Below are positions 1,794 to 33,783 of a DNA stretch of 37,141 nt, piece by piece. Source of the DNA: Eubacterium sp. GTDB taxonomy: Bacteria > Bacillota > Clostridia > Oscillospirales > Ruminococcaceae. Within the stretch, counting starts at the first letter, position 1, and the number at the start of each line of letters is the position of its first letter. The translations under genes were made by a program, and so were the position numbers. The stretch covers positions 1 to 37,141 of the forward strand of contig JAISVH010000055.1 of the NCBI GenBank assembly GCA_031271685.1. The letters run 5' to 3'. The notes beneath the pieces are model-generated. The model was not told the origin of the DNA, made no database searches, and was given only the letters and a program-made list of their open reading frames with translations.

Positions 1794-3124
1794 TGAAAAA
1801 ATTATTGAATATGTTGGCCGTGTTCAGTTATATTTCGCTCGCCATACCGGTAATTCTATACGGTGAACTGAACAGCTTCGGTGAAATAGGTCTGTTTCGT
1901 TGTTTTTTTATTTATCTTCCTTTTCTTTCAATTGTTTTTTTCATGGGCGACCGCAGCAAAGTCCTGATTCTAAAGCTCACCCCGACAAAAAACGTGCTTT
2001 TCAGGATTGCCGAATTCTTTGCATGCTTATTATCAGCGTCGCTTCCTTTACTGGCGGTTGCGTTTTTCTTTCGTCGTATTTATATCTCCGCTTTCGTGCT
2101 CGGAGCTTTGGTTATTTATTTTTACTATATCGGAAAATATTGTCGCGGTCAGGATTTTTATAGTCTCACAAAACCTATAGTGCCGGGTGTCTTATTTGGA
2201 ATCAGCCTCTATTGCTATGTGGGCTTAGCGCTGTGGGGGGCAGGTGTTTCAGGAAATATAACGCTTCAAAAAATCACACAAGAAATTATAATATTCAATC
2301 TGCTGATAAACGGTCTTTTTACCGCTCTTATTTTTAATCAGATAAATATTAGCCGTCTGTTGGAACGACGTGGAAGCTCCATACGGCTTATGCCTAAAAA
2401 CCTGAGAACTAACAACGCTCTTATTGTGTCTTTTATCTGCGTTTTAATAACGGTTTGCTATGCGTTTCGTGAAAAAATAAGCGCGTTTTTAAGTGCGCTA
2501 GCAACACTTTTTTTTTGGTTGGCGGCGATCATAATAAATTTTTTTCAAATACCGAACAACATTGGCGAAAGGCTTGCCGAACCCCCGGAATTTTACGGCC
2601 ATAAAGGCGCAGGCAGCGCTTGGAATATTGCGCTAAGGGTGCTGTTTACGGCGTTGGCGGTGTATTTGGCCTGGAGGTTCAGAACCAATATCGCAAGCTG
2701 GATTTCAGATTTAATAAAACGGCTTGCCAACCGACTAAAAAGGAAAGAAAACAACATTGCAAATACGCCGAAAGAAATTGCATATATTGATTATACCGAA
2801 GAGATCATACATTTAAAAACCGCTCAAAACCTACTAAAGCACGACTTAAAAAGCTATAAAAAAGAAAAAAGCCCCGACAAAAAATTAAGGCTTTCCTATA
2901 AAATATTTATACGTTGGCTAAAATCTGAAAAAATTGACGTTTTAAGCTCTGACACCGCAAGCGAAAGCATTAAAAAGGGAGAAGCGTTTTATCGTTCTGA
3001 GATTTTAAAAATGCAAACCTATAAAGAAAAATACGAAAGCTTGCGTTATGGTGGCATCAACGCCGACCAAGCCGCCGTAAAATTGGCTGACGAGTTAGTC
3101 AAGGCAGTAAAAAAAAGTAATTAA
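1793..3124 (+). CDS. multi-pass membrane protein with soluble C-terminal domain, DUF58 partner
   Basis: 443 residues. Roughly the first 240 contain several hydrophobic segments typical of transmembrane helices. A further segment lies near residue 280-300 (VLFTALAVYLAWRF), followed by a charged, helical C-terminal domain of about 140 residues. Position right after a DUF58 gene and the late TM plus helical tail resemble the DUF4129-type membrane proteins of MoxR/DUF58/TgpA clusters, but I see no diagnostic motif, so this is inference from context. GGTGAATA precedes the ATG, within the end of the upstream gene. The stop codon (3122-3124) overlaps the first base of repeat copy A, so the repeat begins exactly where the gene ends. 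Confidence 0.7.
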   Translation: MKKLLNMLAVFSYISLAIPVILYGELNSFGEIGLFRCFFIYLPFLSIVFFMGDRSKVLILKLTPTKNVLFRIAEFFACLLSASLPLLAVAFFFRRIYISAFVLGALVIYFYYIGKYCRGQDFYSLTKPIVPGVLFGISLYCYVGLALWGAGVSGNITLQKITQEIIIFNLLINGLFTALIFNQINISRLLERRGSSIRLMPKNLRTNNALIVSFICVLITVCYAFREKISAFLSALATLFFWLAAIIINFFQIPNNIGERLAEPPEFYGHKGAGSAWNIALRVLFTALAVYLAWRFRTNIASWISDLIKRLANRLKRKENNIANTPKEIAYIDYTEEIIHLKTAQNLLKHDLKSYKKEKSPDKKLRLSYKIFIRWLKSEKIDVLSSDTASESIKKGEAFYRSEILKMQTYKEKYESLRYGGINADQAAVKLADELVKAVKKSN

Positions 3125-3200
3125 AACATCTGCGGCGGGAAGCTGCTTCCAGTGTTTTAACAAGCGTTAGCTGGGGATTGAAAATCACCCGCCGATGGCG
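3124..3200 (+). repeat. dispersed repeat copy A (modules 1 and 2)
   Basis: Starts with AAACATCTGCGGCGG on the last base of the upstream stop codon. It continues through GTGTTTTAACAAGCG and GATTGAAAATCACCCGCCG. It matches the copies at 13983, 19014, 22994, 26138 and 30431, and the reversed copies at 27574, 29380 and 30021. The inner hairpin is decayed here (GCGGCGGGAAGCTGC). Confidence 0.85.
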
Positions 3201-3390
3201 TATAGCAAATTAACTTGTAAACAAGCAAAAATAATTACTGTAAAACCGCATGATATTTTGAAGTAAATATGCTTGCGCAGATTATAATCGTTTAACTTCA
3301 GATTTACTAAATTTAAAGTTAAACTAGGATTGCAATGTTTGCGAACAGCGCCCGCAACGCGCACGCTGCGAAACCCATTTAACTTTTTAA
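3201..3390 (+). repeat. TATAGCAAATT-bounded module (module 4), decayed copy
   Basis: Aligns along its length with 23027-23209: the shared order is the TATAGYAAATTAACTTG edge, AAAACCGCATG, a TTTAAAGTTAAAC palindrome arm, GCGAACAGCGC and ACGCGCACGCTGCG, ending CCCATTTAACT. The central palindrome, perfect at 23112-23154, has several mismatches here, so this copy appears older. Confidence 0.8.
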
Positions 3391-3498
3391 AAAAACACCA
3401 AGTATTTTTTAAAGTTAAATGACTATAACTGCAGCTTTTGCATCATTATTTTTGATGTTTTCTGAGTTAATTAACTAATAGTCAGCATATAAAGTCCT

Positions 3499-3678
3499 TT
3501 AAGGCAACACCTCACAACTCACGCCTATCGGCTTGAAGAGCAAATCACTTATGTATTTTTCGCCAAACTTCGTTAATTTCGCCTTAAATATCAACGAATA
3601 TTCGCGGCAAAATTGCCTAGTTTGACGAAAAATCTTACTGCGCGCTTTGCACGTCAGAGCTGTGTGTTATTTCCTTAA
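3499..3678. mobile_element. 180-bp TTAAGG...CCTTAA palindromic element, copy 1 (MITE-like)
   Basis: Exactly 180 bp, bounded by TTAAGG and CCTTAA, and close to identical with 29793-29972. The whole element is an imperfect palindrome: the left arm carries AAGGCAACACC, CACAACTC and ATTTTTCGCCAAACT; the reverse complement of the right arm carries AAGGAAATAAC, CACAGCTC and ATTTTTCGTCAAACT. It is non-coding, and the architecture fits a miniature inverted-repeat element. Confidence 0.75.
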
Positions 3679-3710
3679 TACTGCGATAAATAGCTAGATG
3701 CAAATAATTA

Positions 3711-5965: not shown

Positions 5966-5967
5966 AA

Positions 5968-6032: not shown

Positions 6033-6133
6033 TATAGCAGTTTGCAAAGCGTCCGCTGTCCATCACCTAAATTAGGTGATGGACAGCGGACGCTTTTATA
6101 AGATTCATGCACATCAAAACGCAATTTGCTATA
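6033..6133. mobile_element. 101-bp element with TATAGC ends and a perfect 51-base palindrome
   Basis: Bounded by TATAGCAGTTTGC and the inverted GCAATTTGCTATA. The centre (6046-6096) is a perfect palindrome of two 25-base arms around one A; it contains GCGTCCGCTG and TAGGTGATGG. It lies between convergent genes and ends one base before the stop codon of the transglutaminase-like gene. The right part reads, reversed, like the left part of the repeat at 27396. Confidence 0.7.
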
Positions 6134-6134: not shown

Positions 6135-7607
6135 TCAGCTAACTTTCACCGTGACCGATGCCTGCTTTCCGGTTGACGTATAAGCCGTTACTTTTGCTTC
6201 GCCCTTAGCTTTAAAGCTGATTTTTCCTTTACTAACGGTCGCCACTTTGGTGTCTGAAGACGACCAATATATATAATCCTTGCTAGCGGCAGGAGAAAGG
6301 GATGCCTTTATAGTCGCCGAAGCCCCGACTTTTCCGTTGACCGAAGTTTTGTTTAACTTGACTGCAGTGGAATTAGCCGCTGTTAATTTAATAGTTCTCA
6401 GGCTGTTTTTAAATGCCAATTTTTCTTTAATGGTATATGTCAACCGGTTTCCGTTAATGAAAATTCCGTAGATGTAGCCTTTGGCGCTTTCAGGTTTAGT
6501 CGCTATTTTTTTAGCCTTTCCGGTTGCGGGGTCAAAGCTGTAAACGGAGTTAATGTCATTGAAATATAAAAGTCCGTTGTACTGCGCTATGCTTGCGTAT
6601 GACCCAGGCCAAGATTTTTTGCTGGTTTTTTCTGTTCCCCAAACATACCAAACACCGTCAAAGGTATAAACTTTTGATTGCTTATTAGTTCTAAAGTCAT
6701 ATTTATATATATTGCTTTTCTTTTTATCTTTAGAATCAATATCGGTATAATACCATGAATCTCCGAATTTAACCAACGGACTCCTGGTGGTTCTCCATAA
6801 TGCCTTATCGTATTGCGTGTTGGTAGCCTTAGGGTAAGCGTTTTTATTCCAAGTACGCCCGTCGCCCTTAGCGATCTGAGCGTCTGACGCAAGGCAATCC
6901 CTATGCGCCGCACGTCCGTAATAATCCATCTTACTGCTTATGGGATCGTCTTTGGTGGTATCCACATGATACCAATCGTTGCCTAGCTTTACAATGTTCC
7001 AAGAATGATTCATACTTTCGTTGGTTTCGCGCACAATACGGTTTTCATACCCTCCGTAAGTAAGCAAATATTGGAAGCCGCGCGCATAACCCTGACAGGT
7101 AGCCCCATTCTTTACCAAAGCGCCATACCCGTTTTCGTTATAGTCAATATCCGCGTTATAGGCGGTCGCAAGCACCATATAATCATGTAACGTAAGAATC
7201 TTTTCGGCATCGGTCATTGAATCGTTAGTTAAAGAGTAGGCCTTTGCGGCAGCCTTTTTCATCTCACTTTTCCTTAACGCAAGGTCGCTTTGTTTACATA
7301 TATAAGTTATATTATAAATAAACGTTCTGCTGCCAATATTCCCATATGTGCAAGCTATATTAACATAAAACAGATCCTCGTCGTCATAAACTTCCGCCGT
7401 GTAGATATCCCTTAAATCAGTCAGCTCAAGGTTGTCTCTTTTTACATAATCAGTAACATCTATCTCAACCTCAAAGTTTAAAAGGTGAGCCTTAATATAG
7501 TCCTGAATCGTCTGATCCGTACTATAAGCAGCGGCGCTTGACCGAATAACGCAAAAGCTTAACGCCAAGCTTAATGTTAATATAATTGATATAATTTTCC
7601 TTATCAT
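6135..7607 (-). CDS. secreted transglutaminase-like protein with C-terminal Ig-like (Big_2) domain
   Basis: 490 residues. A signal peptide is evident (MIRKIISIILTLSLALSFC, cleavage plausible near SSAAA). The transglutaminase-like core spans about residues 120-230, with the Cys in GATCQGYARGF, the His in SMNHSWNIVKLG and the Asp in WYHVDTTKDDP forming a Cys-His-Asp triad. A middle beta-propeller-like segment of YxF/YxxD repeats (about 260-400) reads out as LYFNDINSVYSFD. The last ~80 residues are a bacterial Ig-like fold ending WSSSDTKVATVSKGKISF. The likely site of action is the cell surface or exterior, perhaps on peptides or peptidoglycan cross-links; the substrate is unknown. AGGAG precedes the ATG. 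It is a tandem paralogue of the next gene, which lacks the Ig domain. Confidence 0.88.
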   Translation of the reverse strand: MIRKIISIILTLSLALSFCVIRSSAAAYSTDQTIQDYIKAHLLNFEVEIDVTDYVKRDNLELTDLRDIYTAEVYDDEDLFYVNIACTYGNIGSRTFIYNITYICKQSDLALRKSEMKKAAAKAYSLTNDSMTDAEKILTLHDYMVLATAYNADIDYNENGYGALVKNGATCQGYARGFQYLLTYGGYENRIVRETNESMNHSWNIVKLGNDWYHVDTTKDDPISSKMDYYGRAAHRDCLASDAQIAKGDGRTWNKNAYPKATNTQYDKALWRTTRSPLVKFGDSWYYTDIDSKDKKKSNIYKYDFRTNKQSKVYTFDGVWYVWGTEKTSKKSWPGSYASIAQYNGLLYFNDINSVYSFDPATGKAKKIATKPESAKGYIYGIFINGNRLTYTIKEKLAFKNSLRTIKLTAANSTAVKLNKTSVNGKVGASATIKASLSPAASKDYIYWSSSDTKVATVSKGKISFKAKGEAKVTAYTSTGKQASVTVKVS

Positions 7608-7656
7608 TTTTTATCTGCTCCTAATCTTCTTTTATATAATCAGGGATTACCCATAA

Positions 7657-8964
7657 TTATTTTATTTTTGCCTTGCTTATTGAGCCTGTAGCATCAGGCT
7701 TTTGCTTTATCACATAGTTGATCTGCCCATCGTTTATAGTCATACCATAAATATAGCCGTTTGCGTTTTTAGGGGTCAATATTTTTATCACTTTACCGCC
7801 TTTTGAATCAAATGCGTAAATTGACTTGCTATCATTAAAATATAACCTTTCGTTATATACGGCAATGCTTGAATAATTCCCGTTCCACCAAGACTTTGTC
7901 CGAGAATCTTCCGTGCCCCAAATAAACCAGGTAGAGTTGATTTGATGTATCTTATCAAGCGTATTTTTACTGAAACTATACCGATAAATATCAGCAAACG
8001 TTGAATAATAAGGTATATTTTTATCAAAATCCGGTTTTTTAAAATTTTCATCATATGAAGGGCTAGCTTTGTCAAGCATAATGAAGTACCAATAACTGCC
8101 AAGCTTTACCATTCCGCTTTCAATTTCTCTTAAAAACAATTTATCATAAGCGGTATTTTTTGCGGCAGGCAAACCATTCGTATCCCAATTACGGTGTTTC
8201 ATTTCTGATTTTTTTAATGCCGTGTCAGATAACATAAAATGATTATGACTCGCATGTCCGTGCATATCGGTCTTTCCCAACATAACAGGATCATCGCTGG
8301 TAACGTCCACATGATACCAATAATTGCCTATTTTAACATAATTCCATGCATGATTCATAGCCCGGCTGTTTAACATAATGCTTTCAATGCCGCAAAGCTT
8401 TAAAAGATGGATATATGCCAACGAATATCCTTGACACACCGCAATGCCGTCAACTAACGCGTCATAAGCCGTGCGGCTGTCGTCGGTCGGCTTTTTAATG
8501 TCATATTTTACATTAAGTATTAAATAATCATGAAGCGCAAGAGCTTTTTCAAAATCAGACATTGAAGGAGTAACTGCTTTTAGCGCTTTTGACGAAGCCG
8601 CGTCAAACAATTTTTTCTTGTTTTTGTAGTCAGTCTTTTTTATGGTATAATCAATACCTTTTAACTTGCATAAGCTCCTGTCTGAAGCAAAGCTTGCCTC
8701 TATTTGAGTTGAAACAAAAAAAATCTCAGGATTTTTTTCTAAAACCCCAATAAATTCATTCATACTGGTTTTCATATCCCAATTGTTGTGTCTAACATAA
8801 TCTGTAATGTCAATTTCAGCTTCAAAATTTTCAAGATGTCGTATAATATATTCATCGAATGTTAAGTTTGTATTTTCGGATGCAACGGCCAAAACGCTAA
8901 GGTGTCCCACCGCAATACAGAACGCCAAAGCAAAAGCCGAAATCTTTTTAATCATAAAGCTCAT
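7657..8964 (-). CDS. secreted transglutaminase-like protein, paralogue without Ig domain
   Basis: 435 residues with a hydrophobic signal sequence (residues 1-27, ending VLAVASE). The transglutaminase triad is intact: Cys in IAVCQGYSLAY, His in AMNHAWNYVKIG, Asp in WYHVDVTSDDP. The middle region parallels the neighbouring gene closely (WFIWGTED...YLYFND-like and GYIYGMTIND), and the protein ends shortly after, with no Big_2 domain. It is transcribed first of the pair from a good promoter (8988-9016), and the 49-base gap suggests both are on one transcript. GGGAGATG precedes the ATG. Likely a gene duplication followed by gain or loss of the surface-binding domain. Confidence 0.87.
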   Translation of the reverse strand: MSFMIKKISAFALAFCIAVGHLSVLAVASENTNLTFDEYIIRHLENFEAEIDITDYVRHNNWDMKTSMNEFIGVLEKNPEIFFVSTQIEASFASDRSLCKLKGIDYTIKKTDYKNKKKLFDAASSKALKAVTPSMSDFEKALALHDYLILNVKYDIKKPTDDSRTAYDALVDGIAVCQGYSLAYIHLLKLCGIESIMLNSRAMNHAWNYVKIGNYWYHVDVTSDDPVMLGKTDMHGHASHNHFMLSDTALKKSEMKHRNWDTNGLPAAKNTAYDKLFLREIESGMVKLGSYWYFIMLDKASPSYDENFKKPDFDKNIPYYSTFADIYRYSFSKNTLDKIHQINSTWFIWGTEDSRTKSWWNGNYSSIAVYNERLYFNDSKSIYAFDSKGGKVIKILTPKNANGYIYGMTINDGQINYVIKQKPDATGSISKAKIK

Positions 8965-13887: not shown

Positions 13888-13934
13888 GTTTTTATCCCCC
13901 TTTTCTTTTATCTTTATATGATTTAATAATGTAT

Positions 13935-13963: not shown

Positions 13964-13982
13964 CAATCGTATTTATAAAATT

Positions 13983-14085
13983 CAAACATCTGCGGCGGAG
14001 CCGCTTCCGGCGTTTTAACAAGCGTCAGCGGTGGATTGAAAATCACCAACCGCCTAAGAGACGGGGGACATCACCACGGTTATAG
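13983..14085 (+). repeat. dispersed repeat copy B (modules 1, 2 and 3)
   Basis: CAAACATCTGCGGCGGAGCC, then GTTTTAACAAGCGTCAGCGG, GGATTGAAAATCACC, and the third module ACCGCCTAAGAGACGGGGGA ending CACGGTTATA. Module 1 has the GCGGCggaGCCGC hairpin intact. The copy fills the gap between the tgpA-like stop (14093) and the DHH promoter. Confidence 0.85.
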
Positions 14086-14092
14086 TTATCAG

Positions 14093-17994: not shown

Positions 17995-17995
17995 G

Positions 17996-18955: not shown

Positions 18956-18986
18956 ATGGTTCTTATGATCCCTTTAACAGATTTGA

Positions 18987-19016
18987 TGTATAAGCGGTTT
19001 TACAGAAATTATCCAA
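18987..19016 (-). promoter_or_regulatory. candidate promoter of the MoxR-DUF58-TgpA set
   Basis: Minus strand TTGGAT (19011-19016), 18-base spacer and TATACA (18987-18992). The -35 overlaps the outer edge of repeat copy C. Confidence 0.45.
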
Positions 19017-19092
19017 ACATCTGTGATGGAGACGCTTCCAGTGTTTTAACAAGCGTCAGCGGAGGGGGGAATATGCGGTTATAATTTGCTAT
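19014..19092 (+). repeat. dispersed repeat copy C (modules 1 and 2 plus AATTTGCTAT end)
   Basis: AAACATCTGTGATGGAGACG, then AGTGTTTTAACAAGCGTCAG and CGGTTATAATTTGCTAT, ending 5 bases before the dprA stop codon (19098-19100). The module-1 hairpin is weakened by base changes. Confidence 0.75.
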
Positions 19093-19097
19093 GCTCT

Positions 19098-21896: not shown

Positions 21897-21907
21897 TTTG
21901 CTCTCTC

Positions 21908-22477: not shown

Positions 22478-22518
22478 TTTTGGATTCCTTTCTTATCTTA
22501 TTTAGCATTAAGACATGC

Positions 22519-22968: not shown

Positions 22969-22993
22969 CCTTTTTGCCTTCCTTTCAAATATT

Positions 22994-23209
22994 CAAACAT
23001 CTGCGGCGGAGCCGCTTCCAGTGTTTTATAGTAAATTAACTTGAAAACAAGCAAAAACAATTTACGCAAAACCGCATGGTATTTTGCAGTAAATCCGCTT
23101 GTGCAAATTATCCTCGTTTAACTTTAAATTTATCAAATTTAAAGTTAAACGAGGATTGCGCTGCTTGCGAACAGCGCTCGCGACGCGCACGCTGCGGAAC
23201 CCATTTAAC
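22994..23209 (+). repeat. dispersed repeat copy D: module 1 joined to a TATAGTAAATT module
   Basis: Module 1 (AAACATCTGCGGCGGAGCCG, hairpin intact) runs straight into TATAGTAAATTAACTTG at 23027. At 23112-23154 there is a perfect palindrome with 20-base arms (CCTCGTTTAACTTTAAATTT and its complement) and an ATC loop. It ends CCCATTTAACT and abuts a TTAAGGCAACACC end at 23210. Confidence 0.85.
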
Positions 23210-23245
23210 TTAAGGCAACACCCGCACGACTCACGCTTAACGGCC
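23210..23245. repeat. solo end of the 180-bp TTAAGG element, overlapping the coaD 3' end
   Basis: TTAAGGCAACACC, then ACTCACGC and CGGCTTG-like sequence, matches the first ~35 bases of the elements at 3499 and 29793 and then stops. The coaD stop codon (23237-23239) and last codons lie within it. Confidence 0.6.
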
Positions 23246-23719: not shown

Positions 23720-24260
23720 TAATCTCTGTTCTCCTGTATATAGTTATCTCTGTTTTTCCCTTTTTATAAGTTTTATATATTGAAAACCCGTTCTCATGCT
23801 CCGGTAATTTTAATCCTTTCTCATGTTCACAGACGATAACTCCTATTTCCGACATTTTTTCGGTTAGCAGCGGAAGAGTTTTTTGAATAAGCTTAAGTTC
23901 GTAAGGCGGATCTAAAAAAGCCAAGTCAAATACCTCAGATGTATTTTTTAAAAAAGTCATATTAGGCTGATAAAAAATTTCAGCTTTATTTGAAGATCCG
24001 GTTTTTTCGACATTGTAACCGGTTATATCGATGCTTTTTTTATCATTGTCAACAAAAACAACTTTTTTCGCGCCGCGGCTCAGCGCTTCAACTCCCAACT
24101 GTCCTGAACCTGAAAACAAGTCCAGCACCACCCTTCCCTCTATCTCGAACTGCACTGCACTGAACATCGCTTCTTTAACCGCGTCCGCCGTAGGACGAAA
24201 GTCGAGACCGTCTGGAGACTTGAGCTTGTACCCGCGCGCGCTGCCTGTTATAACCCTCAT
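23688..24260 (-). CDS. rsmD: 16S rRNA (guanine966-N2)-methyltransferase
   Basis: Methylates G966 of 16S rRNA. 190 residues with MRVITGSARGYKLKSP and RPTADAVKEAMFS at the N-terminus, the SAM site VLDLFSGSGQLGVEALSRGA near residue 45, and the catalytic FLDPPYEL near 117. AAAGGA precedes the ATG. The start overlaps the uvrC stop (ATGA) and the end overlaps coaD by 32 bases, so the three genes form a coupled unit; the rsmD-coaD order is conserved across Firmicutes. Confidence 0.95.
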   Translation of the reverse strand: MRVITGSARGYKLKSPDGLDFRPTADAVKEAMFSAVQFEIEGRVVLDLFSGSGQLGVEALSRGAKKVVFVDNDKKSIDITGYNVEKTGSSNKAEIFYQPNMTFLKNTSEVFDLAFLDPPYELKLIQKTLPLLTEKMSEIGVIVCEHEKGLKLPEHENGFSIYKTYKKGKTEITIYRRTEINEDGDISGQL

Positions 24261-26083: not shown

Positions 26084-26344
26084 AAGGCCACCTCTATGCC
26101 AATAAATATTTATTAATTATTTCTCTATATACCCATTCAAACATCCGCGGCGAAACCGCTTCCAGTGTTTTAACAAGCGTTGCGGAGAATTAAAAATCAC
26201 CCGCCGCTGACGTATAGTAGATTAACTTGAAAACAGATCAAAAAATTTTTTGCTTGATTTTTTTGACTATTTTTAAATTTGAGATAAGTATAAAACGTTC
26301 CGCGTTTATTTTATCATATATTAACGAGGTTGTCAACTTTTAGT
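26084..26344. other. gap upstream of uvrC: repeat copy E and AT-rich sequence
   Basis: Part of the 315-base gene-free stretch 26084-26398. It contains repeat copy E (26138-26234) and an AT-rich stretch with no gene. I see no confident uvrC promoter. Confidence 0.6.
26138..26234 (+). repeat. dispersed repeat copy E (modules 1, 2 and a TATAGTAGATT edge)
   Basis: CAAACATCCGCGGCGAAACC, GTGTTTTAACAAGCGTTGCG, TAAAAATCACCCGCCGCTGA and TATAGTAGATTAACTTGAAA at 26213. Its AAACATC edge points to the uvrC start 55 bases away. Confidence 0.8.
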
Positions 26345-26378
26345 AAAAAGCCCGGTTGAAACATCAACCGGGCTTTTT
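26345..26378. terminator. bidirectional Rho-independent terminator
   Basis: Perfect stem AAAAAGCCCGGTTGA / TCAACCGGGCTTTTT with an AACA loop. It has T runs in both directions; it ends 21 bases past the stop of the minus-strand gene at 26399. Confidence 0.92.
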
Positions 26379-26398
26379 AAATGCTTAAAACTTTAATA

Positions 26399-27157
26399 CT
26401 AAACTGCCGTACGCGCTAATGACAAATTGTTTGGATCCGCATAATTCATAAACCGTTGGTAAACTTCTATGCCTTTATTTTGGGCAGGAGTCAACTTAAT
26501 CGGCTCATACCTTTCCTGAAGCTCGTCAGAAGAACTTACAGTTGCGCTTTCCCTGTTTTGCTCACCAATCTTCTCCAAAGCCTCGCTTGAATAATTAGCG
26601 AACCGCTCAATCACATTTCCGGAATCCATGCCAACCGCTTCACGCACAGCGGCGTCAGGCTGAACAACCGTGCGGTCGATTCCCTCGGCGGCTGCTGAAG
26701 CAACATTTTCACTTATCCTTGCCGCATAACCAACGCTGTCGCGCAAACCTAAAATCCCAGCGGCAAGCCGCTCCTCAAGACGGGTCCTTTGAAGATTTTC
26801 TCGAGTTTCCCTTGCGATTTCAGCGAAATCCGGCGGATCCGGCATTGGTATTTCGCTTTCTTTAATAAGCTTTATCGCTTTAAAATCAGGTTTTTCTTCA
26901 GCAGCTTCAATCCGTTCCTGCAAGGAGCCTTGTAAATTTCTATCTGTGGCCTGTCCGCTCCTTATTTCTTCAAAACTAAAATCAACACGGTCAAACTTTT
27001 TGCCCTCAGGCGCACCATAAACAACACGCTCACGATCTGCGATATTAAGCCTGGATGCATCTTCAGTCACAGGTTTTTCAATTCGGTTCGGTTTTACGGC
27101 GGAGACACTGTTAAATGCCATAAGTCCGCCCAAAGCGCCGATTGGGTCGATAGCCAT
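26399..27157 (-). CDS. unrecognised hydrophilic helical protein
   Basis: 252 residues, family not recognised. It begins MAIDPIGALGGLMAFNSV, has no signal peptide or membrane segment, and is rich in Glu, Ala and Arg with predicted amphipathic helices (EIARETRENLQRTRLEERLA; EAAEEKPDFKAIKLIKE). A proline-rich hinge (IPMPDPPDFAE) divides it near residue 105-113. The C-terminal third reads YQRFMNYADPNNLS near the end. The start has an excellent GAGGAGGG ribosome binding site. It is a single-gene unit: own candidate promoter with an inverted repeat (27178-27219) and its own terminator (26345-26378). It lies between uvrC and the spoVA genes, divergent from the latter; a sporulation role is only a guess from position. 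Confidence 0.75.
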   Translation of the reverse strand: MAIDPIGALGGLMAFNSVSAVKPNRIEKPVTEDASRLNIADRERVVYGAPEGKKFDRVDFSFEEIRSGQATDRNLQGSLQERIEAAEEKPDFKAIKLIKESEIPMPDPPDFAEIARETRENLQRTRLEERLAAGILGLRDSVGYAARISENVASAAAEGIDRTVVQPDAAVREAVGMDSGNVIERFANYSSEALEKIGEQNRESATVSSSDELQERYEPIKLTPAQNKGIEVYQRFMNYADPNNLSLARTAV

Positions 27158-27177
27158 TTCTTACCCTCCTCTCTATT

Positions 27178-27219
27178 AGTATAGTTAACATAATACAAAT
27201 TGTCTCAAATCAAGAGACA
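27178..27219 (-). promoter_or_regulatory. candidate promoter with TGTCTC-N7-GAGACA operator-like inverted repeat
   Basis: Minus strand GAGACA (27201-27206), 17-base spacer and TATACT (27178-27183). The -35 is one arm of the perfect inverted repeat TGTCTCAAATCAAGAGACA (27201-27219), a possible repressor site. Confidence 0.5.
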
Positions 27220-27395
27220 CTTCTACATATACATTATAATACATAGTATCCAGCAAAATGTTAATTTATTGTGAATAAACTGTAAATTTTACATTATTTT
27301 ACTCGTAAATGCGAGAATATTACAAAAAAATAAATTAACAATATTTTTATATGAATCCTCTCTATATGAAAATATTGAAAAACGTAAAAGTTTAA

Positions 27396-27609
27396 TATAG
27401 CAAATTGCGTTTTTATTGAAATTAATCCCACAAAAACGCTCGCCACCGATGGCGTCGCACCGCGCTTTGCGCGGTGTTATAGCAGTTTGACTCATAGTCA
27501 ATAAAAAGTCAAGTTACTATATTACATGCGGTTTTGCGTAAATTATTTTTGTTTTTTTCAAGTCAATTTACTATAAAACACCGGAAGCGCTCCACCGCAG
27601 ATGTTTGAA
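27396..27609 (-). repeat. composite repeat copy F upstream of spoVAC
   Basis: Left end TATAGCAAATTGCGTTTT; interior hairpin CACCGCGCTTTGCGCGGTG around 27459-27477; then the reversed TATAGTAAATTGACTTG edge (27558-27574) joined to reversed module 1 (ACACCGGAAGCG, CGCAGATGTTTG). Its module-1 edge faces spoVAC, 52 bases away. Confidence 0.8.
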
Positions 27610-27632
27610 CAATGCTATAAAAGTTTTATATT
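27605..27632 (+). promoter_or_regulatory. weak candidate promoter of spoVAC, -35 in repeat edge
   Basis: TTGAAC (27605-27610), 16-base spacer and TATATT (27627-27632). spoVA genes are normally read by forespore sigma-G, whose pattern I could not find here, so this vegetative-type match may be fortuitous. Confidence 0.25.
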
Positions 27633-27661
27633 AGAGAACAATATAAATTAGGGAGACTTTT

Positions 27662-28108
27662 ATGCGAATTACAAATAAAGAATATGCAAAAATAGTAAAA
27701 CGCCGCTCGCCTAATACGAAAACCGCAGTTACCACTGCTAAAGCTTTTATAATAGGAGGCTTTATCTGCGTTATCGGACAAGCGTTTAACAATCTTTACA
27801 AACATTTAGGCGCGGATGTTAAAACAACCGGAACGTTAACTTCAATCACGCTTATTTTCATTTCTGCGCTTTTGACAGTTTTTAAGGCGTACGACCGAAT
27901 TGCTAGCCACGGCGGAGCAGGAACGCTCGTTCCAATAACCGGATTTTCAAATGCGGTCGTGTCGTCCGGTATTGAATATAAAACTGAAGGATATATTATG
28001 GGGATCGGGGCAAAAATGTTTACGATAGCGGGACCGGTTATTGTATATGGCGTGCTGACTTCGGTGCTTTACGGCATAATACTGTTTATCGCGCAAAGCT
28101 ATAATTAA
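27662..28108 (+). CDS. spoVAC: stage V sporulation protein AC
   Basis: Membrane channel component for dipicolinic acid movement into the developing spore and out during germination. 148 residues, four hydrophobic segments (about 25-45, 58-75, 85-115, 120-145). Conserved blocks: FIIGGFICVIGQAF, DRIASHGGAGTLVPITGFSN and GAKMFTIAGPVIVYGVLTS. AGGGAGAC precedes the ATG. First of the C-D-E set, but unlike the usual tight spacing there are 178 bases before spoVAD, beginning with a hairpin. spoVAA/AB are absent, as in many Clostridia. Confidence 0.96.
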   Translation: MRITNKEYAKIVKRRSPNTKTAVTTAKAFIIGGFICVIGQAFNNLYKHLGADVKTTGTLTSITLIFISALLTVFKAYDRIASHGGAGTLVPITGFSNAVVSSGIEYKTEGYIMGIGAKMFTIAGPVIVYGVLTSVLYGIILFIAQSYN

Positions 28109-28148
28109 TAAACCGTAAACAAACTTTTGGAAAAAGTTTGGCGGTTTA
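28109..28148 (+). other. hairpin directly after the spoVAC stop
   Basis: Outer stem TAAACCG/CGGTTTA and inner stem CAAACTTTT/AAAAGTTTG with a GGA loop, starting on the base after the stop codon. There is no T run, so it is a processing or stability hairpin rather than a clear terminator. Confidence 0.5.
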
Positions 28149-28286
28149 TATAGTTGCCATCTGTTTCGGGTATAGCTGTATACGACGAGAAGCAGGGCAT
28201 TTGAGCAAATAAACTATCTGAGTGGCTTTGCCGCTTGGTTACAATAGTCTATTTTCGTATTAATAATTAAAAATTTTGGAGTATCT

Positions 28287-29297
28287 ATGAGTTTGTTTTT
28301 AAGTAAAGGCACAATCGAACTGAAAAGCGCTCCTTCAATTAAATCATATGCGGCAACAGTTGGAAAAAAAGAGGGAGACGGTCCTCTTGCCGATTACTTT
28401 GACCACATTGCCGAAGATGTTACTATGGGCGAAAAAAGCTGGGAAAAATCTGAGAGCCTGCTGCAGCAAAGTGCCCTAAGAATTGCCCTTGAAAAAGGAA
28501 ATCTGTCTGAAAGAGATATAAGCTTTATCTTTGCGGGGGACCTTCTGAACCAATGCACCAGCTCTTCATACGGGCTGCGTGATTATAATTTCCCTTATAT
28601 AGGAATTTATGGCGCTTGCTCAAACATGGCCGAAAGCTTAGCTTTGGCGGGAATATTTATTGACAACGGAATAGGAGACAACGCCGCCGCCATCACTTCA
28701 TCTCATTTTTGCTCGGCCGAAAGGCAGTATCGTTTCCCGCTTAACTATGGAGCGGTGCGCTCACCGACCTCTCAATGGACCGTCACCGGAGCCGGATGCG
28801 CGATAGTTTCCTCTCACTGGCAGCCGCCATATATAAAATTTATAACCTTTGGGTCAATAACGGATATGGGTATAAAGGATGCCAACAATATGGGAGCGGC
28901 AATGGCAGGCGCAGCATATGAAACAATAAGCGCTCACTTGGCTAATACCAATAAAAACATTAATAATTTCGATTTAATAATTACCGGCGACTTAGGGAAA
29001 ATAGGAAGCGACTTGCTTTATGATTTATTTAAAAGGAATAAAGTAGATATTAAGCATAAACATAAAGACTGCGGCACGATGATATTTGATACAGAAAATC
29101 AAAAAGTAAACGCAGGCGGCAGCGGCTGCGGCTGCAGCGCCAGTGTGCTGTGCGGATATATACTGCGAGAGCTTGCTCATAGCAGAATTAAAAACGTGCT
29201 TTTCGTCGCAACGGGCGCGCTTTTGTCTCCCACCATGACTCAGCAAGGCGAAAGCATACCGGGCATAGCCCACGCGTTGCATCTGTCGGCGCAATAG
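28287..29297 (+). CDS. spoVAD: stage V sporulation protein AD
   Basis: Dipicolinic-acid-binding protein of the spore inner membrane, with a thiolase-like fold. 336 residues. Conserved stretches: GPLADYFDHIAEDVTMGEKS, FAGDLLNQCTSSSYGLRDY, IGIYGACSNMAESLALAG, TSSHFCSAERQYRFPLNYG, TGAGCAIVSS and GGSGCGCSASVLCGYIL. GGAG lies 5 bases before the ATG. Downstream, 139 bases containing repeat copy G separate it from spoVAE; upstream, 178 bases separate it from spoVAC. Confidence 0.96.
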   Translation: MSLFLSKGTIELKSAPSIKSYAATVGKKEGDGPLADYFDHIAEDVTMGEKSWEKSESLLQQSALRIALEKGNLSERDISFIFAGDLLNQCTSSSYGLRDYNFPYIGIYGACSNMAESLALAGIFIDNGIGDNAAAITSSHFCSAERQYRFPLNYGAVRSPTSQWTVTGAGCAIVSSHWQPPYIKFITFGSITDMGIKDANNMGAAMAGAAYETISAHLANTNKNINNFDLIITGDLGKIGSDLLYDLFKRNKVDIKHKHKDCGTMIFDTENQKVNAGGSGCGCSASVLCGYILRELAHSRIKNVLFVATGALLSPTMTQQGESIPGIAHALHLSAQ

Positions 29298-29340
29298 ACA
29301 GCTTTGTCAGTCGACTTATACAAAATAAGAAGCCGCATAA

Positions 29341-29419
29341 TTATAACAACGTTCATGCCCCCTTCCTCTTAGGCGGCGGGCTGTAAAACACCTGAAGCGA
29401 TTCCTCCGCAGACGTTTGA
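29341..29419 (-). repeat. dispersed repeat copy G between spoVAD and spoVAE
   Basis: Reading leftward: AAACGTCTGCGGAGGAATCG, CTTCAGGTGTTTTACAG, then the third module CCCGCCGCCTAAGAGGAAGG and GTTGTTATAA. It ends 17 bases before the spoVAE start, immediately before the ribosome binding site. Confidence 0.8.
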
Positions 29420-29436
29420 AAAAAGGAGAAGGAAAT

Positions 29437-29796
29437 ATGGAATATTTATGGGCTTTTGTTATCGGAGGGCTTTGGTGCGCAATCGGACAGCTTTTAATCG
29501 ACTATACAAAGCTTACGCCTGCAAGGATATTGACCTTATTTGTTATGGCCGGCGTCACGCTAGGAGCTATTGGCGTTTATGAGCCTCTTGTGAATTTCGC
29601 GGGAGCTGGCGCCACAGTTCCTCTGACGGGATTCGGGTACAATCTATCGAATGGAGTTAAAGAAGCCGTCGCCGAACAGGGTCTGCTTGGCGCGTTTACC
29701 GGCGGGCTAACCGCAACTGCGGGCGGCATTTCAGCGGTAATGATTTTCGCGATTATAGCGGGCGTTATTTTTAAATCCGGAGATAAACAAGATTAA
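29437..29796 (+). CDS. spoVAE: stage V sporulation protein AE
   Basis: 119 residues from the ATG at 29437, the usual length for the SpoVAE (EB) membrane protein. Hydrophobic segments near 3-20, 30-50 and 85-115; conserved blocks IGGLWCAIGQLLIDYTKLTP, GVTLGAIGVYEPLVNFAGAG, VPLTGFGYNLSNGVKEAV and LTATAGGISAVMIFAIIAG. AAAGGAGAAGG is an ideal ribosome binding site. A TTG 21 bases upstream is in frame but lies inside the repeat and before the binding site. The stop (29794-29796) overlaps the first bases of a 180-bp repeat element. Confidence 0.95.
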   Translation: MEYLWAFVIGGLWCAIGQLLIDYTKLTPARILTLFVMAGVTLGAIGVYEPLVNFAGAGATVPLTGFGYNLSNGVKEAVAEQGLLGAFTGGLTATAGGISAVMIFAIIAGVIFKSGDKQD

Positions 29797-29972
29797 AGCA
29801 ACACCATACAACTCACGCCTATCAGCTTGACGAGCAAATCACTTGTGTATTTTTCACCAAACTTCGTTAACTTCGCCTTAAATATCAATAGATATTCGCG
29901 GCAAAATTGCCTAGTTTGACGAAAAATCTTACTGAGCGCTTTACACGTCAGAGCTGTGCGGTATTTCCTTAA
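29793..29972. mobile_element. 180-bp TTAAGG...CCTTAA palindromic element, copy 2 (MITE-like)
   Basis: The same length and near-identical sequence as 3499-3678, including TCACGCCTATC, AACTTCGTTAA, GATATTCGCGGCAAAATTGC and TTGACGAAAAATCTTACTG. The left end here is TTAAAG instead of TTAAGG. The spoVAE stop TAA is its second to fourth base. Confidence 0.75.
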
Positions 29973-30156
29973 TATTATTGATATCGTCAGTCAATTTAAA
30001 AAAACTAAAGGATTTTTAAACAGCGGGGGATTAAAAATCCCCCGCTGACGCTTGTTAAAACACCGGAAGCGGCTCCGTCGCAGATGTTTAAAATAGTTTT
30101 TCATAAATTTCAAGACAGGTTTTTAAGTTTATTTAATGTATATTCGCTTTATTATA
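29973..30156. other. gap after the spoVAE-side element, containing repeat copy H
   Basis: Together with the 180-bp element this is a 360-base gene-free stretch (29797-30156). Only repeat copy H (30021-30090) is recognisable. Confidence 0.55.
30021..30090 (-). repeat. dispersed repeat copy H with a perfect module-2 palindrome
   Basis: CAGCGGGGGATT / AATCCCCCGCTG with an AAA centre (30021-30047), then CGCTTGTTAAAACACCGG and reversed module 1 ending GCAGATGTTT. The edge points to the 3' end of the TSCPD gene, one of two exceptions to the usual polarity. Confidence 0.85.
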
Positions 30157-30405
30157 TTAAGGCATTGAGCGTTTATCCAAAGCCTTTGCCAACTCCGCAG
30201 CACACGATGTCGTTTTTCTCCCGCAGGTTATGCCCCTTAATTTTTCACAAACCTCATCGGCGCGCATGCCCTCGCAAAGAGCTCCGACAGCCTTTCCGTT
30301 TCCGTCGCAACCTGAAACGAACTCAACGTTGCTGACTATATCATCGTTTACCTCAAATTTTATTTTCTTAGCGCAAACACCGGATGGCATGTATTCATAG
30401 ACCAT
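30157..30405 (-). CDS. TSCPD domain protein
   Basis: 82 residues, the size and pattern of the small clostridial TSCPD family (C-terminal domain shared with vitamin-B12-dependent ribonucleotide reductases): YEYMPSGVCAKKIKFEVND, VEFVSGCDGNGKAVGALCEG, LRGITCGRKTTSCAAELAKA. Four cysteines may bind metal. The molecular role of the stand-alone family is unknown. GAGGGGATG precedes the ATG. The upstream edge of repeat copy I is 25 bases before the start. Confidence 0.85.
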   Translation of the reverse strand: MVYEYMPSGVCAKKIKFEVNDDIVSNVEFVSGCDGNGKAVGALCEGMRADEVCEKLRGITCGRKTTSCAAELAKALDKRSMP

Positions 30406-30430
30406 TTTACATCCCCTCGCATTTCTGTTT

Positions 30431-30544
30431 CAAACATCTGCGGCGGAGCCGCTTCCATTGTTATATAACCGCGTTCAATGTCCCTTCCTCTTAGGCGGCG
30501 GGTTCCATACTGACTAAGAGCCGGGGAACATAAACGTGGCATTA
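30431..30544 (+). repeat. dispersed repeat copy I: module 1 plus an inverted pair of module 3
   Basis: CAAACATCTGCGGCGGAGCC, GCTTCCATTGTTATATAACC, then module 3 reversed (CCTTCCTCTTAGGCGGCGGG) and again forward (CTAAGAGCCGGGGAACATAA, ACGTGGCATTATT). The right end abuts the malic enzyme stop codon (30545-30547). Confidence 0.8.
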
Positions 30545-31714
30545 TTAACATCCTAAAATCGTGCCCGCCACCGCTTTTGCCACAACGTCGGGAACATTTT
30601 TGTCTAGCGGGCTAGGAATTATATTTTGCGGATTAAGGTCTTCAGATTTTATCATATCGGCAATAGCTTTTGCCGCCGCAAGTTTCATATCTTTTGTGAT
30701 TTTTTTTGCGCGAATTTGAAGCGCTCCCTTAAAAATACCCGGAAACACCAAAAGATTATTGATCTGGTTAGGAAAATCACTGCGACCGGTTCCCAATATA
30801 TATGCCCCTGCCTCCATCGCCACATCCGGCATTATTTCAGGGATGGGATTTGCCATAGCGAAAACTATTGGCTTTTCGGCCATTGATTTTATCATATTTT
30901 CGGTTAACACTCCGGGGCTGGACACGCCGACAAATACGTCCGCGCCCACGACAGCGTCGGATAATTTCCCGGTTTTAAGCATTTTATTGGTGAGCTTGGA
31001 GATTTCTGCTTTAGACGGGTTAGAATTTTCCTCGCTACGGCACAATATGCCTTTACGGTCAACCAAAACAATGTCGCCCACCCCTAATCGAAGCATTAGC
31101 TTCGCTATAGCTATGCCGGCCGCTCCCGCACCGTTTATTACGATTTTTAAGTCAGCCAGTTTCTTTTCCGCGCATTTTGCCGCATTGATAAGCGCTGCGC
31201 AGGTTACCACCGCCGTGCCATGCTGATCATCGTGAAACACCGGGATATCCAACCGCTCTATTAACCGCTTTTCTATTTCAAAACAGCGCGGCGCAGATAT
31301 ATCTTCAAGATTTATCCCTCCAAAACTGTCTGATATTTCGACTATAGTATTGACTATCGTATCTGTGTCTTTAGACTTTACGCAAATTGGGAATGCGTCA
31401 ATTCCGGCAAATTCTTTAAATAATATACACTTTCCTTCCATAACCGGCATTCCCGCCGGTCCGCCTATGTCTCCTAAGCCCAAAACAGCCGTTCCATCGG
31501 TAATGACCGCAACAAGATTTCCGCGACGTGTGTATTTATATGAAAGCTCAGGATTTTTTTGTATCTCAAGACAAGGCGCAGCTACGCCGGGAGTATATGC
31601 GAGCGTAAGATCCTCTCGCGTGTTTGCCGGCGCGCGAGCGGTTATTTCTATTTTTCCTTTCCACTCCTCATGTTTTTTAAGTGCGAACTGTGATACATCA
31701 TCCATTTTAAGCAT
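30545..31714 (-). CDS. NAD(P)-dependent malic enzyme
   Basis: Oxidatively decarboxylates malate to pyruvate. 389 residues, the short bacterial malic-enzyme form. Motifs: LTLAYTPGVAAPCLEI (catalytic Tyr) near residue 37, VITDGTAVLGLGDIGGPAG near 70, FPICVKSKDTD, EDISAPRCFEIE (metal-binding acids), IPVFHDDQHGTAVV, the dinucleotide site VINGAGAAGIAIAKL near 187, and FAMANPIPEI. NAD versus NADP preference is not decided. The start overlaps the PHP stop by 8 bases, with GGAAG very close to this ATG; the ATG 9 bases downstream is an alternative. Confidence 0.94.
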   Translation of the reverse strand: MLKMDDVSQFALKKHEEWKGKIEITARAPANTREDLTLAYTPGVAAPCLEIQKNPELSYKYTRRGNLVAVITDGTAVLGLGDIGGPAGMPVMEGKCILFKEFAGIDAFPICVKSKDTDTIVNTIVEISDSFGGINLEDISAPRCFEIEKRLIERLDIPVFHDDQHGTAVVTCAALINAAKCAEKKLADLKIVINGAGAAGIAIAKLMLRLGVGDIVLVDRKGILCRSEENSNPSKAEISKLTNKMLKTGKLSDAVVGADVFVGVSSPGVLTENMIKSMAEKPIVFAMANPIPEIMPDVAMEAGAYILGTGRSDFPNQINNLLVFPGIFKGALQIRAKKITKDMKLAAAKAIADMIKSEDLNPQNIIPSPLDKNVPDVVAKAVAGTILGC

Positions 31715-32564
31715 GTACTTCCTTTTTATGTAAATTATTCAGCTTTATCAAAGAATTTTCCGGGGTTAAATTGTCGCCAAGCGATAAAGGGTAATAATTA
31801 TAAAAGCCGTGAAAATCTGAACCTCCGGTCGTTATAAGCCCGTGTTTTTCAGCGACTTTAACTAGTCCCTCCCTGTCTGTCTCACTAAGACTTTGGTGCC
31901 AAATCTCTACACCGTCTATCTCTCCTTTTTTTCCCAACTCGTCAACCAATTCAAAGTTGTTATATACTTTAGGGTGTGCAATAACCGCTATCCCGCCGGA
32001 GGAGTGAATAAGCTGAAGCACAAAACGCACCTCCGGGTATTCATAGGTCTCATTTTTCACTATGTCGGCGCAAATCCCATCGTTTGTATTGAAGATTTCA
32101 TTATAAACCTTGCCATAAAGCTCGGTGGTATACCCATAATCCATTAGAGCGTGCATCACATGACAGCGATAAATTGCCTTGCCGCCGCTAGCATATCGCG
32201 CTATGTGCTCAATTGAAATCGGGTATTTCTCTATAACCTTCATTGCAATTTTTTTTCCCCGTTTTTTGCGGTTTTCAGTGTTGCGCAAACATAGTCCTTC
32301 AAGCCGATCAGGCTTTTGCGGCATATAACACAATATGTGCGCTTTTGTGCCGCGTTCTCCGTCAAAAGCGGAGAATTCTACAGCGGGGATAATATTAACT
32401 CCGTAGCGGTTCCCCAAAACAGCCGAACGCGACAGCGACGACAAAGTATCGTGATCAGTGATCGCAAGGTGAGTGATTCCCGCGCGTCTTGCCTGAGAAA
32501 TCACTTCCTCAATACCGAGCGAACCATCGGACAGCGTTGTATGGCAATGCAAATCAGCTTTCAT
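31707..32564 (-). CDS. PHP-domain phosphoesterase (nucleoside 3',5'-bisphosphatase-like)
   Basis: 285 residues from ATG 32564, which sits 8 bases after GGAG and starts directly on the first metal motif MKADLHCHTTLSDGSL. Other PHP motifs follow: HLAITDHDTL near residue 37, IPAVEFSAF near 68, GGIAVIAHPKVY near 190 and TTGGSDFHGF near 247. The overall layout resembles YciV/TrpH-type enzymes that remove phosphate from nucleoside bisphosphates or short oligonucleotides. Frame extends 45 codons upstream but those codons lie in the promoter leader. Coupled to the malic enzyme by an 8-base overlap. Confidence 0.9.
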   Translation of the reverse strand: MKADLHCHTTLSDGSLGIEEVISQARRAGITHLAITDHDTLSSLSRSAVLGNRYGVNIIPAVEFSAFDGERGTKAHILCYMPQKPDRLEGLCLRNTENRKKRGKKIAMKVIEKYPISIEHIARYASGGKAIYRCHVMHALMDYGYTTELYGKVYNEIFNTNDGICADIVKNETYEYPEVRFVLQLIHSSGGIAVIAHPKVYNNFELVDELGKKGEIDGVEIWHQSLSETDREGLVKVAEKHGLITTGGSDFHGFYNYYPLSLGDNLTPENSLIKLNNLHKKEVHA

Positions 32565-32670
32565 ATCAAAGTCTCCGTCCACAAAGATAACATTATTCTG
32601 CGTCAAACACTCGACAACTATTGCATGTCTTTCTGCCTGCTGTTTGGTGCAGGAGCAATATAATATTTTT

Positions 32671-32699
32671 ATTATACCATTGTTCAATAACAAAAGCAA
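32671..32699 (-). promoter_or_regulatory. sigma-A-type promoter of PHP-malic enzyme
   Basis: Minus strand TTGCTT (32694-32699), 17-base spacer and TATAAT (32671-32676). The transcript would have a leader of about 100 bases, with a small hairpin CCTGC...GCAGG early in it. Confidence 0.7.
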
Positions 32700-32710
32700 T
32701 ATAAAATCAC

Positions 32711-33538
32711 TTATTTTATAATTTTTCCTTTACTTTTAAATTTTGTCATATTAATTTCCTGCTCCTGCCCTCCCATATCGATAAACATAGAAGGCTGCTC
32801 TTTTTTAAGCGTCTCCGGGTTTTCAAGTCCGTTTTGCTCGTAATAAGGATTGATTACATATTTCTGTATTACGGGATAACAACTGAATCCGCATAAAAAA
32901 CAAATTTGAGCCGCCGGGATAACCGGTAATAAAAAAACGGCTATTCCAAAAAATTTAAAAAATAATGCAGATACCCCAATTAAAACTAGCAAAGTGACAA
33001 TATTGTTTTTTAACCCTAAAAACACCATTAAAATCGAATTTTTCAATATCCCTGAAAGCTTTAAATTAGTTGCCGCTAGCTGCAAATAAATATAAAAATG
33101 CGCCATTAATAAAAGCATGGCCGCACAAATCGCCATTATAAGCATTATCATATCTGTGCCGTCACTCCCCATATCAACAGACAAATCATAATACGTTATC
33201 GTAAAAATAAATACACCCGCTAAAATTATATCAGCCACGCCTAAAATAAGACCTTTTTTAAAATTTTCTTTAAAAGCGTCCAAAAAATCACTAAACATAA
33301 AAACCGGCCGCTCTAAAACAAGGCTTCTTGTAACCGCGCACAGAGCGGCGGTAGACGGTCCGAAAGTTATGATCGGAAGTGTAAACAGGAAATATATTAA
33401 ATTAAGCTTTAAAAGCAAAAAAAATTTTCTGCCGAATAATTCAAAAAAGCGAAAAAACGCCTTTTTCCGAGGAGCGCTTTTGGGAACTCCCCTGCCGGAT
33501 TTGTTATAATTATTAAAACCAAACAATATTTTAATCAC
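32711..33538 (-). CDS. YesL-like (DUF624) membrane protein
   Basis: 275 residues with five to six hydrophobic helices (about residues 42-72, 95-120, 130-150, 170-200, 205-225), a basic N-terminus, and the DUF624-like pattern NLIYFLFTLPIITFGPSTAA followed by FLDAFKENFKKG. The YesL family is often near sugar-transport genes, but none are here, so the role is unknown. The start is GTG at 33536-33538 with AAGGGCG just upstream. A strong promoter lies at 33552-33580. Confidence 0.8.
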   Translation of the reverse strand: MIKILFGFNNYNKSGRGVPKSAPRKKAFFRFFELFGRKFFLLLKLNLIYFLFTLPIITFGPSTAALCAVTRSLVLERPVFMFSDFLDAFKENFKKGLILGVADIILAGVFIFTITYYDLSVDMGSDGTDMIMLIMAICAAMLLLMAHFYIYLQLAATNLKLSGILKNSILMVFLGLKNNIVTLLVLIGVSALFFKFFGIAVFLLPVIPAAQICFLCGFSCYPVIQKYVINPYYEQNGLENPETLKKEQPSMFIDMGGQEQEINMTKFKSKGKIIK

Positions 33539-33551
33539 CGCCCTTAATAAA

Positions 33552-33580
33552 ATTATACATTATTTTTAAATGATTTTCAA
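33552..33580 (-). promoter_or_regulatory. sigma-A-type promoter of the YesL-like gene
   Basis: Minus strand TTGAAA (33575-33580), 17-base spacer and TATAAT (33552-33557). The -35 lies in AAATTAACTTGAAAA, the same string as the module-4 edge at 23033. Confidence 0.75.
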
Positions 33581-33687
33581 GTTAATTTAATGTAACACTT
33601 GAAAAAAAAAAGCTTATGTGTTAAAATATTTATATAATGACACAATGCTTAACTCAGGCGTGTTATACACAAAGTAAGATTTTTATT

Positions 33688-33783
33688 AAAACATCTGCGA
33701 CGGAGCCGATTCCAATGCTTTACCAAGTGTCAGCGGGGGGCATCCACCGCCTAAGAGGCGGAAGACGTGCACGCGGTTCTATC
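33688..33783 (+). repeat. dispersed repeat copy J (modules 1, 2 and 3)
   Basis: AAACATCTGCGACGGAGCCG, ACCAAGTGTCAGCGGGGGG, CCACCGCCTAAGAGGCGGAA and ACGCGGTTCTATC. The edge faces the YesL-like gene, 150 bases away. Confidence 0.8.

Follow-up and report, generated by a model that had tools for sequence, protein, structure and literature searches.

A composite intergenic repeat in a Eubacterium sp. genome, likely a non-autonomous mobile element, with partial polarity relative to genes

The window analysed here is the whole 37,141-nucleotide (nt) contig JAISVH010000055.1 (C151), one of the 152 contigs of a Eubacterium sp. genome of 2.26 Mb that is 93% complete. Its genes are separated at ten places by module 1, a repeat with a hairpin core, and all ten copies listed in the original prediction, which had been made from the letters of the window, are present where it placed them. 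The 13-nt core matched 6 places in the window at up to 2 mismatches, compared with 0.77 expected, and the edge motif AAACATCTG matched 24 at up to 1 mismatch, compared with 9.4 expected. Module 1 is a real block, but in most cases it belongs to a longer element, of which it makes up the left side and which closes at a defined right end, ..GCGGTTATA. The layout of this composite is TTCAAACATCTGCGGC..GTGTT (module 1), block Y (TTAACAAGCG..GCGG) and TTATA; in consensus, a complete composite of about 104 nt reads TTCAAACATCTGCGGCGGAGCCGCTTCCRGTGTT, then TTAACAAGCGTCAGCGGGGGATT..AATCACCCGCCGCCTAAGAGGCGGGGGACATGAACGCGG, then TTATA. The copies in the window are as follows.

3121..3680, plus strand: the longest mosaic, with module 1, the 5' part of Y, module 3 and further repeats up to a 199-nt family
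13981..14084, plus strand: complete composite, with module 1 at 13981-14014, block Y at 14015-14079 and TTATA at 14080-14084; covariance-model match of 118.6 bits over model 1-104
19012..19083, plus strand: composite with an internal deletion, ending ..GCGGTTATA
22992..23211, plus strand: module 1 (22992-23025), TTATA (23026-23030), then the AT-rich module 3
26136..26235, plus strand: module 1, the 5' part of Y, module 3
27525..27609, minus strand: module 1 carrying a small deletion and followed by module 3
29342..29420, minus strand: short composite, its tail toward the spoVAD stop and its edge toward the next SpoVAC/SpoVAEB-type gene
30021..30092, minus strand: module 1 and the 5' part of Y, without the right end; edge toward a gene end
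30429..30544, plus strand: module 1, then an inverted Y right end (TATAACCGCG..), then another Y-like right end
33686..33781, plus strand: complete composite, in a divergent intergenic region

In the longest mosaic, the first bases are overlapped by the stop codon (3122-3124) of the upstream gene. Pfam matches back several of the names given earlier to the neighbouring genes (MoxR-type AAA, UvrC, SpoVAC/SpoVAEB twice, TSCPD, and DUF624, for which YesL was the earlier note's own name), while the genes called 'DHH' and 'coiled-coil' had no Pfam match at 1e-5. As had been claimed, the edge of module 1 faces a gene start in eight of the ten copies, in agreement with the open reading frames; the two others, at 3124 and 30089, point toward gene ends. 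For two copies of the eight the start had to be chosen: the longest frames, 12958-14049 and 29416-29796, would have their first codon within or at the repeat, and 13887 and 29437, both further into the frame, were used as starts.

The repeat also occurs outside the window. The 25-nt core AAACATCTGCGGCGGAGCCGCTTCC was found at up to 3 mismatches in 222 places of the genome (114 and 108 on the two strands), and its reversed control in none. Two samples of this genome were studied, the first of 708,363 bases (the window and stretches of contigs that were long or known to hold copies) and the second of 374,516 bases from further contigs; genes were called with a simple script, so that start positions are rough. 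The first sample holds 123 copies at up to 5 mismatches (control, 0), of which a single one lies within a called gene, though 79% of the sample was called coding. Of the 55 copies in the further contigs, 2 lie inside genes. The right end GACATGAACGCGGTTATA occurs in 118 places at up to 4 mismatches, compared with 8 for its control, most often 82-85 nt after the left end. Among the 123 copies, module 1 is followed by Y at the same base in 63, by the TATAATCGTTTAAC palindrome in 10, by module 3 in 4, by other sequence mostly starting ATA in 9, by no recognisable tail in 8 and by something else in 29; in total, 23 copies continue at the same junction base with sequence beginning mostly with ATA. 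Nine of 71 matches to the left end of Y had no module 1 match just upstream; in 3 of these 9 the TATAATCG palindrome precedes the match, and several of the 9 seem to be due to chance. The family has sharp ends, TTC(A)A.. and ..TTATA, a nearly exclusively intergenic location, and block junctions fixed to one base in most copies.

The ends of 71 paired elements were compared. At the left end TT is followed by C in 60 of the 71, and the preceding base is not conserved. The composite ends are not inverted repeats, the left TTCAAACATC (TTCAAAC) not being complementary to the right GCGGTTATA. Flank words common to both sides did not clearly exceed those in shuffled pairings of the 71 elements, and no duplication of at least 3 bases was detected. 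Perfect or near-perfect palindromic short forms of both ends exist separately. Right ends sometimes contain the end of an adjoining antisense gene: of the right ends found at up to 3 mismatches, 35 had such a gene end at -120 to 60 nt, and in 16 of these the gene stopped exactly 5 nt within the element, in one at -31. In paired elements with the tail toward a gene end, the element overlapped the stop codon in 14 of 49, and 18 lay within 5 nt of the stop, compared with 6.7 of 49 after random placement in the same gaps. Because truncation of genes in random frames would use several frames, the simpler reading is that TTATA is part of the target, and we infer that this motif (on the other strand TATAA, sometimes containing the gene's own stop) is either the target or retained from it.

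Next, we consider the polarity of the repeat, which the original prediction had described as fixed. In the first sample, window included, 111 copies had both neighbours, 14 of them in divergent and 16 in convergent regions. Among the 81 tandem copies, which lie between co-directional genes, the AAACATCTG edge pointed toward the downstream start in 56 (p = 7.5e-4). The further contigs gave 25 of 31 tandem copies (p = 8.8e-4), with 6 divergent copies, 7 convergent ones and 9 without both neighbours. Over all region types, edges pointed toward a start in 70/111 (63%) and 31/44 (70%) copies, compared with 8/10 in the window. When a simpler gene call was applied to all stretches, 75 of 106 tandem copies had the majority orientation (p = 2.3e-5). 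Neither outcome that the original prediction had named as refuting it was found: the repeat occurs in the rest of the genome, and the bias persists there. It is partial, with about 30% of tandem copies reversed.

A split by GC skew gave 47 to 14 for tandem copies at leading-strand genes and 11 to 7 at lagging-strand genes, while non-tandem copies were divided 17 to 17 with respect to the leading strand. Since the non-tandem copies are evenly divided and lagging-strand genes still show 11 to 7, polarity follows genes and not replication, and replication direction was rejected as its cause. A preference for TTATA was rejected as the full cause: it predicts values of 54% and, at stops, 2.2%, and 36/45 and 14/66 were observed. 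The score for T runs after the hairpin stem was 1.92 in the forward and 0.49 in the reverse orientation.

Among 34 aligned copies of this genome, none of the 10 hairpin pairs covaries; G-T and A-C mismatches in the hairpins are about equally frequent (47 and 51), and double changes number 4 in 1230 pairs. Rfam gave no match in the window at gathering score, and two sub-threshold matches on stretches of relatives and of the sample, one of them BjrC80 (32 of 80 bits) in the genome G092 (locus L178). The distance from an edge to the start downstream can be as short as 13 nt, yet edges are not concentrated near starts beyond random placement (10/44 within 25 nt, compared with 13 simulated). A mobile promoter was considered and rejected: read outward, the edge gives TTGAA, which might serve as a -35 box, but a -10-like hexamer is not enriched at 16-18 nt (7/70 start-facing and 1/41 other copies, p = 0.25; eleven shifted positions give 6-16). 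A scan of 13900-33800 found 59 promoter-like sites, more than the 42.4 expected by chance and by eye not concentrated in copies, and 26 terminator-like sites, compared with 22.6 expected. Of the two explanations offered originally for the polarity, a function is not supported (no covariation, no G-T excess, no -10 hexamer), and an insertion bias remains. A bias of insertion, or selection that disfavours one of the two orientations in operons, is a simpler account than function, and the polarity probably reflects such selection within operons.

Two minus-strand leaders ahead of genes (loci L084, L097; positions 2114, 8260) carry a 5-mismatch match to the core and have a GAAACAGATG stretch in common. 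Neither belongs to an Rfam family above cut-off, and they look like other structured leaders.

Relatives were represented by 71 genomes of the genus, our own counted, and 394 genomes sampled from the order; G-numbers label genomes below. They are distant, since UvrC identity within the GTDB genus is about 51-64% (68 of 71 genomes with a match). Named matches in a UvrC search came from Oscillospiraceae, Ruminococcus-type and other Clostridia genomes and metagenome-assembled genomes, the best of them at 57% (metagenome-assembled genome Th196P3bin104). In 59 other genomes (35 of the genus and 24 of the order) the core itself was absent from the genus and had a single 3-mismatch match in one genome of the order. 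The exact core was not found in a collection of genome contigs, from which our genome was possibly excluded, and the window's composite had no match in plasmid and GenBank phage collections. A covariance model built from 34 copies matched in 4 of the 71 genus genomes, our own included.

The inner hairpin CCGCCTAAGAGGCGGGGGACAT is more widely distributed. At up to 3 mismatches it occurs in 14 of the 71 genus genomes, our own included, with 97 copies in our genome, 67 in G019, 15 in G061, 5 in G025 and 1-2 in each of the remaining genomes. In the order it occurs in 28 of 394 genomes, four of them members of the genus; besides these, the copies numbered 20 in G420, 11 in G347, 7 in G244 and 7 in G335. 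Some of the 3-mismatch matches are chance, as the control also scores once in a few genomes. Some relatives hold composites with the inner hairpin and a different left block. In G019 the same layout is seen both in short hairpin elements, TTCAATAAGGGGCTTGCCCCGTCATTATA, and in longer ones, where a block separates ATT from ATA; near-identical copies are among those of G019. The exact hairpin is present in three viral contigs. One of these, the IMG/VR contig L243 of a contractile-tail phage, holds two related composites 8.4 kb apart (around 937 and 9299), among genes for tail sheath, baseplate wedge and tape measure. Many contigs of G061 and G420 end inside the element, which is expected if the copies are near-identical and recent.

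The elements of relatives end in different 3' tails after the inner hairpin, such as CTTGCC (G019), AGTCGC (G009), CGGCAGC (G079) and CTACGCT (G025), and in 13 of 19 elements the best complement of the tail lies 70-76 nt upstream. To measure this complementarity, each tail was paired with its own arm and with swapped arms. When only Watson-Crick pairs were counted and near-duplicates were dropped (12 of 19 elements kept), the mean was 5.8 base pairs (bp) with the own arm and 4.5 with swapped arms, and 12 of 20000 permutations were as good; across nine settings, 0 to 77 of 20000 were. In a later set of 13 element types the means were 4.85 and 3.51, with 1 of 20000 permutations as good; at least 5 pairs were formed in 6 of the 13, and fewer in those of G347, G335, G244 (two), G366b, G281 and V1. 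The predicted tail-arm helix is thus complementary between species while its letters change. As the structure is kept between species and does not covary within the genome, it appears to matter to the spreading lineage and not to the landed copy. This pattern fits a mobile element that is recognised in folded form.

We searched for a mover with the Y1 transposase PF01797, DDE_3 (PF13358) and the integron integrase TIGR02249 only, and none was found in our genome; other transposase families were not sought. In the genus, PF01797 occurs in 20 and PF13358 in 10 of 71 genomes. The integrase was above cut-off in none of the 71; tyrosine recombinases gave partial matches below the cut-off, 2 of them in our genome. 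No resident IS200/IS605 sharing the element's ends was found: our genome has no Y1 locus, and the eight Y1 loci of relatives that were viewed are ordinary IS200/IS605-type loci whose ends, judged by eye, are not those of the element. The ends of an IS605-type locus in G019 (L240, contig C13) also differ from those of the element. That locus holds two frames that we take to be tnpA-like and tnpB-like, the latter broken by a stop.

Our reading, held with somewhat better than even confidence, is that the repeat is a composite family of more than 200 copies and likely a non-autonomous mobile element. A recombinase would probably move it as one folded strand of DNA. The element would insert 5' of TTATA, sometimes at stop codons, and blocks arriving later would use the TTATA that an older copy provides, giving stacked mosaics. 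Polarity would arise because, inside operons, selection acts against copies with the T-richer flank of their module 1 hairpin in the sense strand, and some insertions at stop codons may add to it.

Several results weigh against this reading. Neither PF01797 nor PF13358 was detected in a genome that is 93% complete. The TT at both ends is a 2-bp overlap that could be a duplication. Stop-codon overlap was weaker in the further contigs (2/23) than in the paired elements. The only nested insertion judged informative (L076) is compatible with the reading, but its host sequence is itself a repeat. The evidence for the helix comes from relatives: tail and arm match over just 4 bp in the three elements of our genome that were tested. 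A first complementarity test, badly anchored and with G-T pairs allowed, gave 6.5 for both own and swapped arms, and a folding-energy test (424 of 5000) did not show the helix either. As to polarity, the 14/15 forward copies in tandem gaps below 100 nt speak for it, but the contrast with larger gaps (22/30) is not significant (p = 0.23). A cause based on terminators is weak, with one terminator-like match inside the copies of the scanned region. Polarity is small and not established in G019, where one set of copies gave 9 to 3 and the further stretches gave 5 to 4.

Going further, one may tentatively picture an order-wide class of gene-less mobile DNA that is defined by its folded shape, with species-specific letters in the closing helix, serial TTATA insertion by gene ends and an orientation coupled to transcription. 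This would imply an undiscovered single-strand recombinase acting at transcribed gene ends; we regard it as possible, and doubtful.

Among the alternatives, the one that survives best, though we consider it unlikely, is a set of miniature inverted-repeat transposable elements (MITEs) that an IS630-type transposase would move, duplicating TA; nested TA insertions would then make up the composite. Several co-occurring palindromic blocks start and end with TATA, block junctions lie at TTA/TATA, and the ends of Y are imperfectly inverted by eye. However, the two ends of the composite are not inverse to each other (the left one is TTCAAAC), flank words in common do not clearly exceed shuffled pairings, and DDE_3 was found neither in our genome nor in G019 with its 67 copies of the inner hairpin. 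MITEs have terminal inverted repeats, which the composite lacks; its palindromic short forms occur apart from it. Improbable, in our judgement, is growth of palindromes by recombination, where hairpin-templated repair and gene conversion would keep the arms complementary and copy blocks without a dedicated enzyme. It would agree with the palindromic versions of both ends, with complementarity that changes in concert between species and with the lack of an enzyme in our search, but it fits poorly with sharp ends at hundreds of unrelated sites, with the near-identical copies of G019 and with the copies in a phage contig. Least probable is a cis-acting RNA element whose polarity sets the hairpin in a leader or between operon genes, tuning downstream expression: the majority orientation of tandem copies, edges so close to starts and a helix kept between species speak for it, but tandem copies are reversed in about 30%, 16 and 7 copies are convergent, compensatory pairs and a G-T excess over A-C are lacking, edges are no nearer to starts than in random placement, the neighbours in the window are functionally unrelated and the window has no Rfam match that reaches the gathering score.

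The family fits best among the short interspersed palindromic mobile repeats, where it is marked by TTATA stacking, concerted change of the helix and gene-following polarity, and can be compared with known systems. PMC3733652 and PMC8266576 describe REP/BIME and REPIN sequences as extragenic palindromes of high copy number, often composite, that lie for the most part downstream of coding sequence and are processed as folded single-stranded DNA. The repeats mobilised with RAYT (TnpA-REP) resemble ours in being high-copy, extragenic and often composite palindromes; they differ in that our consensus has no unpaired GTAG/CGTC tag at the hairpin foot, that no Y1 transposase was found in the genome, and that our composite is about 100-150 nt long, with a long-range helix in relatives and TTATA at one end. 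BOX of Streptococcus pneumoniae is described in PMC3049150 as modular and mostly intergenic, with optional inner modules between two end modules, and a table there has it over-represented between convergent genes. Our repeat is similar in its modular composite build and mostly intergenic location; it differs in being polar between co-directional genes and without inverted ends, a separation by description and not by sequence comparison.

Non-autonomous elements derived from IS200/IS605, of the PATE type, have no inverted ends, no duplication, subterminal hairpins and a fixed short motif beside one end. Our repeat resembles them in these end features, with the motif on the other strand and, as to duplication, none of at least 3 bases detected; it differs in that no Y1 enzyme was found in its genome and that the IS605-type locus of G019 has other ends. 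Integron attC sites, according to PMC2727003, keep their structure without sequence conservation and are recognised as a folded single strand. The variable complementary arms of our repeat may be alike in that structure is kept while letters are free, and AAC..GTT boxes, perhaps comparable with the inverse AAC/GTT boxes of attC, were seen by eye. Unlike attC, our repeat has no cassette genes and is dispersed among ordinary genes, and no integrase passed the cut-off in the genus.

Short bacterial repeats without a known mover are common; here, the helix changes in concert and the orientation follows genes. The missing enzyme can be sought by gene content, comparing copy-rich genomes with the many relatives that lack the inner hairpin, and the cause of polarity is testable. 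In the open-access literature, the repeat was not named in the titles and abstract openings found, and four core strings occurred in no paper's full text.

Other repeats were observed in the window. A second family of 199 nt lies at 3482-3680 and 29776-29974, the two copies being 88% alike with TTAAGG-type ends. A perfect 25-bp inverted repeat with a 1-nt spacer lies at 6046-6096, next to a gene (6135-7607) on its 3' side. Finally, two adjacent minus-strand genes at 6135-8964 have a common 72-nt stretch that is 76% alike (6943-7014 and 8288-8359), perhaps the result of tandem duplication.

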